A program made the translations under genes and the position numbers. The notes beneath the pieces are model-generated. The model ran no database searches, was not told the DNA's origin, and was given only the letters and a program-made list of their open reading frames with translations. Shown piece after piece: positions 44,014 through 50,601 of a stretch of 53,694 nt of DNA (positions within the stretch are counted from its first letter, which is position 1; each line of letters opens with the position of its first letter). This stretch comes from Opitutia bacterium (lineage in GTDB: Bacteria; Verrucomicrobiota; Verrucomicrobiia; Opitutales; Seribacteraceae): the NCBI GenBank assembly GCA_018675995.1, contig JABGWZ010000102.1:1-53694 (forward strand), in the 5' to 3' direction.

Positions 44014-44946
44014 GTGAATAGCATTAAAGACATTTCTGCCAAGACTGACGCCTCGCACATCGAAAGCCCGTCAACTCTTTCTGTGCATGGTCTTTGGGAA
44101 CTGACAAAACCGCGCCTTAGCATGCTTTCTGTATTTACTGCATCCCTTGGTTATTTGGTTCATTATCCGCTCAACCCTGATTTAATTGTCTTTTGTGCAC
44201 TAACTATCGGTACTGCTCTTGCAGCCGGTGGTGCTGCTGCATTAAACCAATGGATGGAGAAAGATGAAGATCTACTCATGCCAAGAACTGCGAATCGACC
44301 TATTCCAGCCAAACTGGTCGAACCTGAGTTTGCTCTCGTTTTTGGAGTTATCCTATCTTCCATCGGCCTTGCTATTCTTTGGATTGGCACAAATCCATGG
44401 GCCTGCGCACTTACTTTACTCACTTTAGTTGTTTATTTGCTTTTCTACACTCCCCTCAAAAAGAAATCACCTTACGCAACAGAAGTTGGTGCTATTTCTG
44501 GTGCCCTCCCACCCCTTATCGGTTGGGTTGCAGCATCTGGTGAACCTTCCACTTACGGTTGGATTTTATTCGGTATCCTCTTCACATGGCAATTACCCCA
44601 TTTCATGGCAATTGCTTGGAATTTTCGTCAAGACTATCAGACCGGCGGGTTCAAATTACAGGATCTAGGAAATCCTAACGGCTTTCACTTGGCCCGTAAA
44701 AGTTTAATATACACTATTTTACTTACTGGATTTGTTTTTTCCCCATACTTTATCCAATCAAGTCAGCCCCAACCAGGTGTTCTTTATTTTGTTTCTGCTT
44801 GCTTATTGTCATTATACATTCTTATCCCGGCTACCAATTTTTTATTATCAAACAATCGGGATAAATCAGCCAGGAAGCTGTTTTTCGTAACTATCATATA
44901 TTTGCCACTTTTACTCGCCATACTCGTCATTGATCGTTTTCTTTGA
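44014..44946 (+). CDS. ctaB: Protoheme IX farnesyltransferase (heme O synthase)
   Basis: This 310-residue UbiA-type membrane enzyme attaches farnesyl to heme b, giving heme O, the precursor of heme a of the oxidase encoded next. It starts at GTG. The first Asp motif region is AAALNQWMEKDEDLLMPRTANRP (N-x-x-x-D-x-x-x-D spacing), then VYLLFYTPLKKKSPYATEVG and the second DxxxD-like QDYQTGGFKLQD. About eight hydrophobic segments are predicted. It leads the oxidase operon (13 bp before coxB). Heme A synthase is not in the window. Confidence 0.96.
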   Translation: MNSIKDISAKTDASHIESPSTLSVHGLWELTKPRLSMLSVFTASLGYLVHYPLNPDLIVFCALTIGTALAAGGAAALNQWMEKDEDLLMPRTANRPIPAKLVEPEFALVFGVILSSIGLAILWIGTNPWACALTLLTLVVYLLFYTPLKKKSPYATEVGAISGALPPLIGWVAASGEPSTYGWILFGILFTWQLPHFMAIAWNFRQDYQTGGFKLQDLGNPNGFHLARKSLIYTILLTGFVFSPYFIQSSQPQPGVLYFVSACLLSLYILIPATNFLLSNNRDKSARKLFFVTIIYLPLLLAILVIDRFL

Positions 44947-44959
44947 TATTTCTTGAACT

Positions 44960-46378
44960 ATGAAAAAATTGCTAACTAAAATATTTAGCCTATCTGTCAA
45001 AATACTCCCTGTACTTCTCATTGCAGTGAGTGGTTGCTCACGAATTGACCACAAGCAGTCAGCACTCGACCCAAAAGGCTTGGTATCACAAAACCAATAC
45101 GATATTTTCATGCTTTCGGTTTGGATTACCATATTCCTTTTCTGTGCAGTTGGTGGATGCCTTCTTTATGTCTTGTGGAAGTATCGTGCCAAATCACCTG
45201 AAGAAGCGATGGAAGTACCTGCCCAATCTCATGGTAATTCAAAAGTTGAAATTTCTCTCATACTTGCATCAACTGTCATTCTTGTCATTCTCGCAATACC
45301 TACGCTTCAAGGAGTTGTCTTAATGAATAGACTTCCGGATCCAAATGATTCTCAAGCATTGGAAAAATATGACCTCAATAAAAGTGCCATTGAAGATGCA
45401 ATTACTGTAAATGTCACTGGTAAACGTTTTTTTTGGGTTTTCGAATATCCTCAGTTTGGAATTGTCACAGCAAACGAGCTTGTTTTTCCTGCATCCAAGG
45501 CAGTTAGAGTTAACCTTCGAACTGAGGATGTTATTCACAGTTTTTGGTTACCTAAACTAGCCGGAAAAATGGATCTTATGCCTGGCCAAGAAAATTTTTT
45601 ATGGTTTGTCGCCGATCAAAACAAGATTCTGACCAAAAAAGATTCTGAAGGTAAAACAATCAAAGTTTCATTAAATGAAGCTATGCCTTCGGTCTATGAC
45701 GGCCAAATGAGAGAGAGAATTTTTGCGAAACAAAAATTCACGGATGAATTTGAAGCAGTTGGCGGCTTGTTCTACGGTCAATGTGCTGAGTACTGCGGAA
45801 ATTCACACGCTTACATGTCTTTTCGTGCTCTCGCACAATCCGACGATGATTTTGATTCATGGGTTAAAAGTTTCCAGAACGCTCAAAATCCAAACAAACA
45901 ACCTTCCGAGTACAACCCCGAAAAAGAATATTCGAAAGGCAGTGTGGTATCATTCCCGGATAATTCACTTGGAGAGTCTAATTCAAGGGAGTACCGAGCT
46001 GCTGTTAAAATAAACAAAGGCCAAGCTCCAAATCTCACCAAAAAAGGTTGGGAAAAAGCCCATTCAGATGATTATGAAATGGGGAAGCAATTATTCGCTT
46101 CTCTCCAGTGCGTTCAGTGCCACGCTATCAACCGAACAGGGCTAGGCTCAAAAGGGCCAAACTTAACTTTATTTGGAATTCGAACTTCCCTTGCTGCAGG
46201 GTGGATGAGAAATGATGAAGAAAACCTTTCTCAATGGCTTAAAAATTCAAACGAAGTTAAATTCGGTAATCTTATGTGGAATGGCGAAGGAGTTGATGAT
46301 GATCACCCTCTACGTAATCTCGAAGATGACGATGTTAAAGTAAATCAATTAGTTGCCTATCTTTTAGGCCTTAAATAA
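44960..46378 (+). CDS. coxB: Cytochrome c oxidase subunit II with CBM5/12-like insert and cyt c domain
   Basis: This 472-residue lipoprotein (signal ending VSGCS) has two transmembrane helices and a periplasmic CuA domain with DVIHSFWLPKLAGKMDLMPG and GGLFYGQCAEYCGNSHAYM. A C-terminal class I cytochrome c domain has CVQCH at 384-388, in LQCVQCHAINRTGLGSKGPN. Between the CuA domain and the cytochrome, residues about 318-366 form an extra module: YNPEKEYSKGSVVSF, EYRAAVKINKGQAPN and GWEKA. Its aromatic/Gly pattern looks like CBM5/12. The cytochrome domain marks a caa3-type oxidase fed by an internal heme. It is followed by coxA after 41 bp. Confidence 0.94.
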   Translation: MKKLLTKIFSLSVKILPVLLIAVSGCSRIDHKQSALDPKGLVSQNQYDIFMLSVWITIFLFCAVGGCLLYVLWKYRAKSPEEAMEVPAQSHGNSKVEISLILASTVILVILAIPTLQGVVLMNRLPDPNDSQALEKYDLNKSAIEDAITVNVTGKRFFWVFEYPQFGIVTANELVFPASKAVRVNLRTEDVIHSFWLPKLAGKMDLMPGQENFLWFVADQNKILTKKDSEGKTIKVSLNEAMPSVYDGQMRERIFAKQKFTDEFEAVGGLFYGQCAEYCGNSHAYMSFRALAQSDDDFDSWVKSFQNAQNPNKQPSEYNPEKEYSKGSVVSFPDNSLGESNSREYRAAVKINKGQAPNLTKKGWEKAHSDDYEMGKQLFASLQCVQCHAINRTGLGSKGPNLTLFGIRTSLAAGWMRNDEENLSQWLKNSNEVKFGNLMWNGEGVDDDHPLRNLEDDDVKVNQLVAYLLGLK

Positions 46379-46419: not shown

Positions 46420-48366
46420 ATGGCAACTGAATCAATCAAATATGTTACCCCTGACTCTGATACCAAGATAGAAACAAAAGCTTTCCCCCGTCCCGGTCAG
46501 CACACAAAAGGAATTGTAAATTGGTTAACCACCATCGACCACAAGAAAATTGGTATTATGTATGGAGTAGCCGCTTTATTTTTCCTCATAATTGGGGGAA
46601 TCGAAGCACTTCTTATTCGTTCTCAACTTTGGGATCATAATATGGATGTGCTTACTAACCGGCAGTACAATCAAATGTTCACTATGCATGGAACCACTAT
46701 GGTCTTCCTTGTTATCATGCCTTTGAGTGCAGCGTTTTTTAATTTTATTATGCCCCTGCAAATCGGTGCTAGAGATGTGGCGTTCCCTCGGATGAACACA
46801 CTTAGTCTTTGGTGCTTTATCGCAGGTGGTATCACCCTTAACCTAAGTTGGTTTTTCACTGGTGGCTCGCCCGCAATTGGTTGGTTTGGTTATGCCCCTC
46901 TAACGGACACGCGTTTTGCAGAAGTACTTGGAGATATGGGGCCCGACTTTTGGATTTTCTCACTTCAAATATTAGGTCTAGCATCCCTACTTGCATCGTT
47001 TAACTTCATCACAACGATCATTAACATGCGTGCTCCAGGAATGACTATGATGAGGTTGCCTGTATTCACCTGGATGACCCTCATAGTCAGTTTTCTTATC
47101 ATTCTTGCCTTCCCAGCAATTACTATTGCCTTGGTAGAACTAATGTTTGATAGGACTTATGGGACCAATTTTTATGACTTTCTTGAAGGTGGTAAACCCC
47201 ACCTTTGGCAGCACCTTTTTTGGATTTTCGGTCATCCAGAGGTTTACATTCTTATCCTACCAGCTATGGGTATTGTTTCAGAAATCATTCCCGTATTTTC
47301 TCGCAAGCCTCTATTTGGTTATGGCTTAATTATTTTTTCAGGGGCGATTATCGGCTTCATGGGGTTTGCAGTTTGGAGCCATCATATGTTCACCACCGGA
47401 ATGGGAATTGTAGCCACATCAGCTTTTTCGATCCTCACTATGCTTATTGCTATACCAACCGGAATTAAAATCTTTAATTGGATCGGCACCATGTGGGGAG
47501 GTCGTATCCGCTTTGAAACTCCGATGCTCTTTGCACTTGGTTTTATAACTATGTTTATGGTCGGAGGATTCACGGGAATAATGCACTCATCCGTTCCTAT
47601 TGATGCACAACATCAGGATTCCTACTTTGTAGTAGCCCACTTTCATTATGTTCTAATTGGGGGTGCCCTTTTTGGACTCTTTGCAGGGTTTTATTTTTGG
47701 CTTCCCAAACTTTCAGGCAAGATGCTAAACGAAAAACTTGGGAAATTTGTTTTCACTCTTATGTTCATCGGATTCAATCTTACCTTCTTTCCCATGCATT
47801 ACTTAGGAATGATAGGCCAACCCCGTAGGACACATAGCTACAATGAGGGTCACGGCTTTGAGACATGGAATCAAATTGCAACTATCGGGGCCTTTATTCT
47901 CGGAGTGGGAATTGCGATTGGGGTTTACCAGTTTGTAACTGCAGCGTTTAACAAAAAACTAAAGCCTGCCGGAAAAAACCCGTGGGATGCCAGAACATTG
48001 GAATGGACCCTTTCCTCTCCGGTTAAAGAGTACAACTTTGCACGCACACCAATCATTAAATCCCGAGATCAAGCATGGGAAAACAATTACGGTCCTAAGG
48101 AAAATCATTCGGATAAAGAACCACTTGATGATCATGGAGTACACATGCCTGACAGATCATGGTACCCACTCGTGACTGCACTCGGTATATTTGGATTGGT
48201 TTTGGGTATGCTCTTCCATCAATCCGTCGATCTTAATACAGGAGAGATTATAAGAGACTACACATACGCCATTGCTGGTGGAGTCGTTGCAATTATTGGA
48301 ATAATTATGTGGTCCATTGAAGGACCAGCCGGTTACCACCTCTTTCCTAAAGAATCTGAAGAATAA
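46420..48366 (+). CDS. coxA: Cytochrome c oxidase subunit I
   Basis: This 648-residue catalytic subunit holds heme a and the heme a3-CuB centre. Signatures are readable: the low-spin heme His region YNQMFTMHGTTMVFLV, the CuB/D-channel segment LFWIFGHPEVYILILPAMG (Glu of the A1 type, cross-linked Tyr), HHMFTTGMG, and VVAHFHYVLIGGALFG for heme a3. A C-terminal extension (after about residue 530) includes a His-rich linker and two further transmembrane segments (WYPLVTALGIFGLVLGMLF, TYAIAGGVVAIIGIIMWSIE), as in long caa3-type subunits. No ribosome-binding site is seen upstream of the ATG. Confidence 0.98.
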   Translation: MATESIKYVTPDSDTKIETKAFPRPGQHTKGIVNWLTTIDHKKIGIMYGVAALFFLIIGGIEALLIRSQLWDHNMDVLTNRQYNQMFTMHGTTMVFLVIMPLSAAFFNFIMPLQIGARDVAFPRMNTLSLWCFIAGGITLNLSWFFTGGSPAIGWFGYAPLTDTRFAEVLGDMGPDFWIFSLQILGLASLLASFNFITTIINMRAPGMTMMRLPVFTWMTLIVSFLIILAFPAITIALVELMFDRTYGTNFYDFLEGGKPHLWQHLFWIFGHPEVYILILPAMGIVSEIIPVFSRKPLFGYGLIIFSGAIIGFMGFAVWSHHMFTTGMGIVATSAFSILTMLIAIPTGIKIFNWIGTMWGGRIRFETPMLFALGFITMFMVGGFTGIMHSSVPIDAQHQDSYFVVAHFHYVLIGGALFGLFAGFYFWLPKLSGKMLNEKLGKFVFTLMFIGFNLTFFPMHYLGMIGQPRRTHSYNEGHGFETWNQIATIGAFILGVGIAIGVYQFVTAAFNKKLKPAGKNPWDARTLEWTLSSPVKEYNFARTPIIKSRDQAWENNYGPKENHSDKEPLDDHGVHMPDRSWYPLVTALGIFGLVLGMLFHQSVDLNTGEIIRDYTYAIAGGVVAIIGIIMWSIEGPAGYHLFPKESEE

Positions 48367-48402: not shown

Positions 48403-49050
48403 ATGAGTGAAGCATCTGCACACGCCCTTGATCACCACGAACCGGTAACCAGTACTGGGATTCATAACAAAAAAGTTCTTATGTGGGCTTTCCTTGGATC
48501 CGATTGCATGTTTTTTGGTACCCTTATCTCAACGCACTTAATTTACAGGAAGATTTCTGCCACAGTTGGGGGGAATTTTTTGGATATCCGTGATGTTTTT
48601 GATATCGAGCTTACCTCATTCAGTACATTTATCCTGCTTGCAAGTTCGCTATTTATGGCACTTGCCGTTTCTGCCATACATAAAGGCAACCTGACTAGCA
48701 CGAGATGGATGCTTTTTGGTACAATTATTTTTGGGGCAATTTTTCTTGCTTGTCAGGTTTATGAATTTACCCACTTCGTTCACGCTCCGGGTAACGAACT
48801 CACTTTATCCAGTTATAGAGGAGAACCCCATGTATTTGGTTCAACTTTTTATGTCTTAACAGGAACCCATGGCACTCATGTCGCAATTGGAGTGTTTTGG
48901 CTTCTCGGTTGGCTTGCCTATTCCTTCACTGGGAAAATGAGCACTGCTGATGCTATGGATGTAGAATGTTGCGGACTTTATTGGCATTTCGTTGATATTG
49001 TCTGGATCATTATTTTTCCTGTCATTTATTTAATGGAATACGCGTTTTAA
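48403..49050 (+). CDS. coxC: Cytochrome c oxidase subunit III
   Basis: This 215-residue five- or six-helix membrane subunit is typical of the short bacterial form without the first two helices of mitochondrial COX3. Signatures are KVLMWAFLGSDCMFFGTLIS near the start, YVLTGTHGTHVAIGVFWLLG, and CCGLYWHFVDIVWIIIFPVI at the end (Glu/Asp-His-Trp-H pattern). It stabilises subunit I and proton uptake. It begins 36 bp after coxA and precedes subunit IV by 27 bp. Confidence 0.96.
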   Translation: MSEASAHALDHHEPVTSTGIHNKKVLMWAFLGSDCMFFGTLISTHLIYRKISATVGGNFLDIRDVFDIELTSFSTFILLASSLFMALAVSAIHKGNLTSTRWMLFGTIIFGAIFLACQVYEFTHFVHAPGNELTLSSYRGEPHVFGSTFYVLTGTHGTHVAIGVFWLLGWLAYSFTGKMSTADAMDVECCGLYWHFVDIVWIIIFPVIYLMEYAF

Positions 49051-49077: not shown

Positions 49078-49773
49078 ATGAGCGGACATTCTGAAGACCC
49101 GGTAGCTGAAGAAAGCAAAAGATTTTTTACCTTTTTTAATCTCTCCATGTTGCTGGTTGCTATTACCGGCATTGAAATAGTTATCATTTATGTTCAAACC
49201 TTTGACGGTGCAAGTATCATCGGCGTACTCTTTGCCACATCAATAATCAAATTTGTCGGTGTAATAACTTGGTTTATGCACTTAAGATGGGAGAAAATTT
49301 TAAATACGATCTTATTCCTAATGGGTCTAGTGATTGCAGTCTTTACTTATTTTGCGGTAATTTATATGGCGGATGATCCACCCGTTGTGGAGGAGTTTGT
49401 GGTATCCCCGTTGGAACATGATTGGAAGGCCGATGAAGAGTATCAAAAGGGAGATTATGTGAAGCATAAAAATGTTTTTTATGTTTCCAATATCGAGCAA
49501 AATTCTCCATCTATTGTTCCTGGAGAAAAAGATTCAGCTAACTCTTGGAATAAAGTGGACGGAATTCCCCATCAGTTCACATGGAAAGTCAGTAATGGAG
49601 ATTTAATTGAAATTAACTCGCTTCAACCTGGTAATCCTTTTTTCCATCAATACCATCCATCTGAAATCTATAACATCGAAGGTTCAAAGATTGCTTTGCT
49701 TACTCAAAGTGCTTCTACTGATGACTTCAGGATTAAAGTCCGCTCTGATGCTTTCTGGGTTGAGAATCAATAA
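49078..49773 (+). CDS. Cytochrome c oxidase subunit IV with CBM5/12-like periplasmic extension
   Basis: This 231-residue protein is twice the length of ordinary prokaryotic subunit IV (about 100 residues). Residues 1-100 form three transmembrane helices (FFTFFNLSMLLVAITGIEIV; GVLFATSIIKFVGVITWFMH; TILFLMGLVIAVFTYFAVIY) of the COX4-pro family, with the C-terminus predicted outside. Residues 112-162 are a small module: HDWKADEEYQKGDYVKHKN, VFYVSNIEQNSP and SWNKVDG, a pattern matching CBM5/12-type domains and the insert in subunit II. The last 70 residues (HQFTWKVSNGDLIEINSLQP onward) are not recognised. Length and position between coxC and ctaG support the identity. Confidence 0.87.
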   Translation: MSGHSEDPVAEESKRFFTFFNLSMLLVAITGIEIVIIYVQTFDGASIIGVLFATSIIKFVGVITWFMHLRWEKILNTILFLMGLVIAVFTYFAVIYMADDPPVVEEFVVSPLEHDWKADEEYQKGDYVKHKNVFYVSNIEQNSPSIVPGEKDSANSWNKVDGIPHQFTWKVSNGDLIEINSLQPGNPFFHQYHPSEIYNIEGSKIALLTQSASTDDFRIKVRSDAFWVENQ

Positions 49774-49812: not shown

Positions 49813-50601
49813 TTGAATTCTCCGATCACTCTTAGTCATTGGCATACAGAACCGGCTCTTATAGCGGGGTTATTATTTGTTTGTTGGTGCTACTCCATTA
49901 TTGTTGGACCTTATCGTAAAAGTTTGTCTGCTGGTTTACCTTATTCCCACAAGCATACTTATTGGTTTTATTTAGGAATAATCAGTTTTTACCTGGCGGT
50001 TGGCTCCCCCCTGGATCCATTGGGAGAAAATTTTTTATTTTTCGCCCACATGATTCAACACAACATACTCATGTATGTTAGCCCTTTATTTATTCTTTTA
50101 GGAATTCCATATCAGATTGTAGACGATTACATTGCAAACAAACCATTACTGGAAAGTTTTCTTAAATTTATCTTTCATCCAATAATCGCTGGATTAATGT
50201 TTACCTTAGTTTTTTCTTTTTGGCATATCGGTGCGTTTTATGAAGCTGCAATTAGGGATAAAACACTCCATATGGCAGAGCACTTATCAATGTTTTTTAC
50301 CTCGGTTGCAATGTGGTGGCCAATATGCGGACCATCCAAAAGAATTCCTCCGTCAAGGTATGGTCCCCAAATGCTTTATGTATTAGCAATAATGCTTGGG
50401 CAAACTCCGATATTTGCCATCCTGACCTTCTCTAAAGATGTGCTGTATGATACTTACTTTTACGCGGAACGAATCATTGAATTAACTCCGCTAGAAGACC
50501 AGAAAACAGGGGGAGTTTTAATGAAGCTCGCCAACATGATTGTTTCAGTGAGTGTTCTTTCTTCTATTTTTTACCGTTGGTCTAAAGAACAAAGCAGTTA
50601 A
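49813..50601 (+). CDS. ctaG: CtaG-type (caa3) cytochrome oxidase assembly protein
   Basis: This 262-residue multi-pass membrane protein of the caa3_CtaG family assists assembly of the caa3-type oxidase, probably in CuB insertion. It starts at TTG with MNSPITLSHWHTEPALIAGL. About seven hydrophobic helices contain conserved histidines: FFAHMIQHNILMYVSPLFIL, FSFWHIGAFYEAAIRDKTLH, and MAEHLSMFFTSVAMWWPICG. It ends 10 bp before the convergent pckG gene. It is not homologous to the Cox11-type CtaG of proteobacteria. Confidence 0.93.
   Translation: MNSPITLSHWHTEPALIAGLLFVCWCYSIIVGPYRKSLSAGLPYSHKHTYWFYLGIISFYLAVGSPLDPLGENFLFFAHMIQHNILMYVSPLFILLGIPYQIVDDYIANKPLLESFLKFIFHPIIAGLMFTLVFSFWHIGAFYEAAIRDKTLHMAEHLSMFFTSVAMWWPICGPSKRIPPSRYGPQMLYVLAIMLGQTPIFAILTFSKDVLYDTYFYAERIIELTPLEDQKTGGVLMKLANMIVSVSVLSSIFYRWSKEQSS

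Follow-up and report, generated by a model that had tools for sequence, protein, structure and literature searches.

Putative CBM5/12-fold accessory modules on subunits II and IV of a caa3-type cytochrome c oxidase in a family of Opitutales

The stretch of DNA considered here (53,694 nucleotides; hereafter the window) is a contig of a 2.6 Mb draft genome; its closest relatives bearing a name are Opitutales (Verrucomicrobiota) that are uncultured and mostly marine, among them single-cell genomes and the entries Verrucomicrobia bacterium TMED40 and TMED56. Between 44.0 and 50.6 kb, its forward strand carries the operon of a caa3-type oxidase in the order ctaB-like, coxB, coxA, coxC, subunit IV and ctaG-like. 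The coxB (ctaC) gene (44960..46378) encodes a caa3-type subunit II of 472 amino acids, recognized by TIGR02866 (CoxB, 7.4e-48) and by the Pfam models COX2 and Cytochrom_C, and coxA (46420..48366) encodes subunit I (PF00115, 7.5e-160). Family knowledge points to a protohaem farnesyltransferase-like protein for the ctaB-like gene (44014..44946) and to a ctaG/caa3 assembly-like protein for the last gene (49813..50601), and coxC (48403..49050), for subunit III, was read by eye from its open reading frame; the identities of these three genes rest on sequence and operon position only. Subunit IV (49078..49773; 231 amino acids) matches COX4_pro over residues 25-90 (1e-8; 35.9 bits against a cut-off of 28.9) and is scored by the TIGR02229 caa3_sub_IV model below that model's own cut-off. 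CoxB consists of a transmembrane part, a CuA domain, an insert and a C-terminal cytochrome c domain with the motif CVQCH, and its predicted structure resembles the caa3 subunit II/c 2yev_B (E 3e-22). Across 37 CoxB sequences, the CuA ligands H193, C275, C279, H283 and M286 are invariant and E277 nearly so, as are, without exception, C384, C387 and H388 of the fused cytochrome c domain. Judged by these sequence features, the operon encodes a caa3-type cytochrome c oxidase, with oxidation of cytochrome c and proton pumping as its predicted activity.

Subunit IV has predicted helices at residues 8-39, 44-68 and 73-97. Basic residues lie at the N-terminus (KR at 14-15) and in the loop between helices 2 and 3 (RWEK), and the acidic stretch DDPPVVEEF follows helix 3; under the positive-inside rule, this arrangement places the remainder of the protein in the periplasm, so that a periplasmic position of the extension is supported by both this reading and the structure prediction. 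Within the extension, residues 112-161 (49411-49560) contain the motif that the first-pass annotation had singled out, namely W116-x5-Y122-x2-G125-D126-x-V128-x-H130, F134-Y135-x-S137 and S156-W157, together with an inexact version of its element N-x-x-x-P, in which the prolines after N142 are P144 and P148. The corresponding structural unit spans residues 113-160 (about 48 residues; 49414..49557).

Profile searches and predicted structures converge on the nature of this unit. The Pfam model CBM_5_12 matches 21 of 21 IV modules (best 1.6e-9), including that of the window, which falls below the Pfam cut-off of 26.2 bits (E 0.0036, 17.7-19.9 bits); the module of one relative, in genome G015, exceeds the curated cut-off. 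Searched against the PDB, the IV-module profile finds the tandem modules of a Vibrio chitin oligosaccharide deacetylase (5e-9) and the chitin-binding domain of ChiA1 (1ed7, 0.014). The module of a single relative (L013) suffices to find the Vibrio deacetylases at 1.2e-5 and aligns at equal length to residues 2-35 of 1ed7, setting its W36 (subunit IV column 147) on residue 33 of the chain, presumably ChiA1 Trp687 if the chain starts at residue 655. In Foldseek comparisons, the predicted model superposes on the chitin-deacetylase module of 4nz4 with 1.5 A over 48 residues and reaches a TM score of 0.72, normalised by target, against 1ed7. The fold-core residues W116, Y122 and W157 are invariant among relatives. 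On profile and predicted fold, the IV module is a diverged member of the CBM5/12 (chitinase-type chitin-binding) fold, in keeping with the carbohydrate-binding-like module proposed at first pass.

This module is set within another beta domain, between its first strand (residues 104-111; 49387..49410), a predicted strand in which F107 and V109 are invariant, and its remainder (residues 162-231; 49561..49770), with predicted strands over residues 163-230 and pLDDT values of 86-92 except in the last 15 or so residues. The tail domain is conserved, with a mean identity of 58%, and evolves more slowly than the module that it holds. Residues 162-231 gave no convincing match in Pfam or, by sequence, in the PDB. 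The possibility that this tail is another cupredoxin, resembling the one in CoxB, was rejected on an hhalign comparison (P 0.087 over 14 columns), and whole-model Foldseek matches over it to a GH29 enzyme, CBM29 and flocculins were discarded, with rmsd values above 10 A. One relative, G001 (L176:889-1815, minus strand), has a subunit IV of 309 residues, the tail domain of which is interrupted by some 75 additional residues.

The insert of CoxB lies between the CuA and cytochrome c domains at about residues 316-368 (about 53 residues; 45905..46063) and occurs only in f1, the Opitutales family of the window genome, which includes genera g1, g2, g3 and g4. The first-pass annotation described subunit IV as repeating the pattern of subunit II. 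The residues that it named are present, but the repetition is loose: relative to IV, the first W of the CoxB insert is Y, G-D is G-S, and the counterpart of N-x-x-x-P is N-K-G-Q-A-P. CBM_5_12 matches 6 of 21 CoxB inserts (best 0.0011) and gives no match to the copy in the window, and the CoxB-insert profile has zero matches among PDB sequences. The predicted model of the insert is all-beta, mostly with high pLDDT (about 88-95), and has a strand order similar to that of the IV module.

How clearly the two segments match depends on the level at which they are compared. The pairwise alignment proposed at first pass is near background for single sequences (BLASTP E 0.069 over 14 amino acids), whereas family profiles of the IV module and the CoxB insert align with hhalign P values of 4e-4 and 2e-5. 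When columns of the CoxB profile were shuffled, none of 500 controls reached the observed score of 22.4 (mean 10.1, SD 2.4, maximum 19.9), and windows slid over both proteins scored best at the modules (25-30 versus about 15 elsewhere). Modules from flagellar proteins of family f1 (n=51) align with CoxB at P 7.6e-7 and with IV at P 1.1e-13, of which only the CoxB link counts as independent, the set having been gathered with the IV profile. It is therefore very improbable that the segments are unrelated beta hairpins that came by chance or convergence to have a few aromatics in common: the single-sequence BLASTP result and the failure of the CoxB profile to match any PDB sequence are what such an origin would predict, but the profile tests with their shuffle and window controls, the independent link between CoxB and the flagellar modules, the inserts that match CBM_5_12 themselves and the similar strand order in the models all favour homology. 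We conclude that the CoxB insert is, as far as its sequence tells, a degenerate relative of the CBM5/12-like IV module, and the central claim of the first-pass annotation, that two unrelated subunits of one complex have related modules, holds at the level of profiles.

The distribution of the modules is sharply bounded. A subunit IV-type match occurs in 149 of 273 genomes of the order; among the matches listed, only the IV proteins of family f1 run through the extension, those of other Opitutales families ending near residue 100-110 or going beyond it only through stop codons. Within f1, the full extension is found in 37 of 42 genomes, a count that leaves out a symporter match in G028 and a flagellar-type match in G024. 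The five others are G002 and G024 (both incomplete, with no caa3-type subunit I found in either), G605 (51% complete), G028 and G031. The last two belong to genus g3 and have a different, aa3-type oxidase (L181, L182) with no module in subunits II or IV; an internal exception in g3 was accordingly ruled out, its oxidase being of another type. Among 388 genomes sampled across the phylum, the full-length extension was found in none except the window's own. CoxB is readable over the insert region in 29 of the 38 named f1 loci with an IV module, and all 29 have the insert; the outgroup loci have neither (IV module in 0 of 16, CoxB insert in 0 of 15). The co-occurrence that the first-pass annotation had suggested examining is complete wherever both genes can be read. 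Both oxidase modules were probably gained before g1, g2 and g4 diverged and were retained in all three. Genome G016 has two caa3 loci (L179 = C1:1-9000; L178 on C19); in the C1 copy, coxA is readable only through stop codons and the IV module is disturbed, and it looks like a decaying copy.

The module is by no means confined to the oxidase, and a reading that singles out this complex is not supported. In the window genome, a CBM_5_12 search also finds FlgL (977 amino acids), FliD (two fragments of 556 and 725 amino acids) and a small secreted protein (368 amino acids), to which reading of the flagellar loci added FlgK (1059 amino acids); the names of flagellar proteins are those suggested by N-terminal sequence read by eye. 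Relatives in f1 have FlgL proteins of 1250-1480 and FliD proteins of about 1260 amino acids, each with several module matches, and flagellin with modules as well, so that hook-junction, cap and filament proteins of the flagellum are all among the hosts. Very large flagellar proteins with modules, and flagellin-like proteins with modules, are encoded at L081 (G000:C233:22000-29540), L083, L084, L151-L159, L169 and L170. In G028 and G015, a symporter-like protein (SSS-type, sodium/solute; 619 and 640 amino acids) has the module in an inter-helix loop (L174:1205-3061, minus strand; L175:821-2740, plus strand). The Pfam model, which is unbiased in this respect, gives CBM_5_12 matches in 9 of 9 f1 genomes versus 8 of 94 others, and in 7 of the 9 when subunit IV copies are left out. 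Flagellar modules occur in two other families (a FlgL-like protein in G046 and a flagellin-like protein in G053), so the flagellar use is wider than the oxidase use. That a single small module recurs in flagellar proteins, in a symporter and in an oxidase of one family is a case of lineage-specific domain spread; the module looks more like a part re-used throughout the lineage than like an established wall anchor for the oxidase. A more ambitious reading, which we consider improbable, is that it serves as a CBM5/12-derived common tag by which envelope proteins of f1, the two core oxidase subunits among them, bind one shared envelope component, be it glycan or protein; were this true, respiration, transport and flagella would share an attachment or organising principle.

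Sequence conservation within the modules bears on what they may do. The ligand face of ChiA1 includes Trp687, and H681, S683 and W687 are its chitin-face positions. In subunit IV, these correspond to H141, S143 and F/W147, which are kept in most relatives, the position of His681 being H in most of them. An aromatic residue, F or W, occupies the Trp687 position in 28 of 30 relatives; the window protein has V147 there instead, and L006 has P. In CoxB, the segment that aligns with it reads K/I-x-K-G-Q-A-P and offers no aromatic at the ligand position. Because the key aromatic is lost in the window's IV and was not found in the aligned CoxB segment, classical chitin-type glycan binding does not appear to be the conserved function of the modules; ligand binding could be retained in some IV relatives, to judge from their residues. 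PMC8449059 cites a study whose title names Trp687 and Gln679 as taking part in chitin binding. The modules also evolve rapidly. Across the family, the IV module averages 0.37 and the II module 0.46 in identity, compared with 0.80-0.82 in the conserved regions of these two subunits, and median dN/dS is 0.45 and 0.34, respectively, compared with 0.03-0.07, these values being rough, with dS near saturation for many pairs. Module dN/dS is nevertheless below 1 in nearly all pairs, and the sequences support a selected fold.

Two readings of these patterns compete with the one that we prefer. In the first, already raised in the first-pass annotation as a role in wall anchoring or sensing, the ligand of the modules would be the peptidoglycan backbone of GlcNAc-MurNAc, or else chitin-like glycans, and binding would tether or position the oxidase at the wall. 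The CBM5/12 fold, the periplasmic location, the H, S and F or W at the ChiA1 positions of most IV relatives and the avidity that two modules per complex could add are all compatible with it. The loss of the aromatic in the window's IV and in L006, its absence from the CoxB segment and the rapid evolution of both modules count against it, as do the weak binding of soluble chitin oligomers by CBM5 modules (Kd about 2 mM; PMC8449059) and the presence of the same module in flagellar proteins outside the cell, where peptidoglycan is absent. Wall anchoring or sensing is thus not supported by the residues and rates found here, and we hold a glycan anchor to be unlikely. Much the same standing, that of a minority possibility, belongs to the second reading, in which a spreading module inserted at permissive surface sites of secreted and membrane proteins and was kept without a specific function. 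It would account for the many unrelated hosts within the same genomes, for the low sequence constraint and for the further insert in the IV tail of G001 (L176), but it sits poorly with the retention of both oxidase copies in every readable locus of three genera, with the invariant fold core, with dN/dS values below 1 and with the small size of many of these genomes.

The best explanation, to which we give roughly even credence, is that subunits II and IV each have a small periplasmic accessory beta module of the CBM5/12 fold, a re-used building block with a spacer or docking role. In CoxB, the module would serve mainly as a folded spacer or docking surface positioned between the CuA and tethered cytochrome c domains; in IV, it may offer a similar surface as a protrusion of the beta domain that follows membrane helix 3. 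We favour a periplasmic spacer or docking role over cell-wall anchoring or sensing, as a retained fold with loose sequence fits such a module better than a conserved sugar-binding anchor; the rapid evolution is also compatible with a module that has no conserved partner at all. Few membrane enzymes are as well studied as the haem-copper oxidases, and none of their subunits is known to us to have a carbohydrate-binding-type fold; a literature search for such an oxidase found none. If the modules matter, they illustrate how periplasmic domains common to flagella and transporters can be added to a core respiratory complex, and the re-purposing of a carbohydrate-binding-type fold for protein contacts becomes testable.

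Among known systems, the closest counterpart of the complex is the caa3 oxidase of Thermus (2yev; TIGR02866 CoxB, COX4_pro), with which it has in common the operon, the CuA ligands, the C-terminal cytochrome c of subunit II and a three-helix subunit IV. Unlike the Thermus enzyme, it has an insert of about 53 residues between the CuA and cytochrome c domains of CoxB and a predicted periplasmic extension of about 130 residues on subunit IV. The modules themselves resemble CBM5/12 modules (PF02839; ChiA1 1ed7; Vibrio 3wx7 and 4nz4) in predicted fold and in the core W-x5-Y-x2-G-D-x-V ... Y ... W; many IV relatives also have the ligand-face positions H-T-S ... W/F. Their setting, the membrane subunits of a respiratory enzyme, distinguishes them from the CBM5/12 modules of chitin-active enzymes, and the window proteins score below the Pfam cut-off. 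Beta modules of phage tail fibres and contractile injection systems (8fqc, 9rkv and 7b5h), a likeness resting on weak sequence or Foldseek matches, appear to use the same small fold in protein scaffolds, albeit in other host proteins and without a link to respiration.
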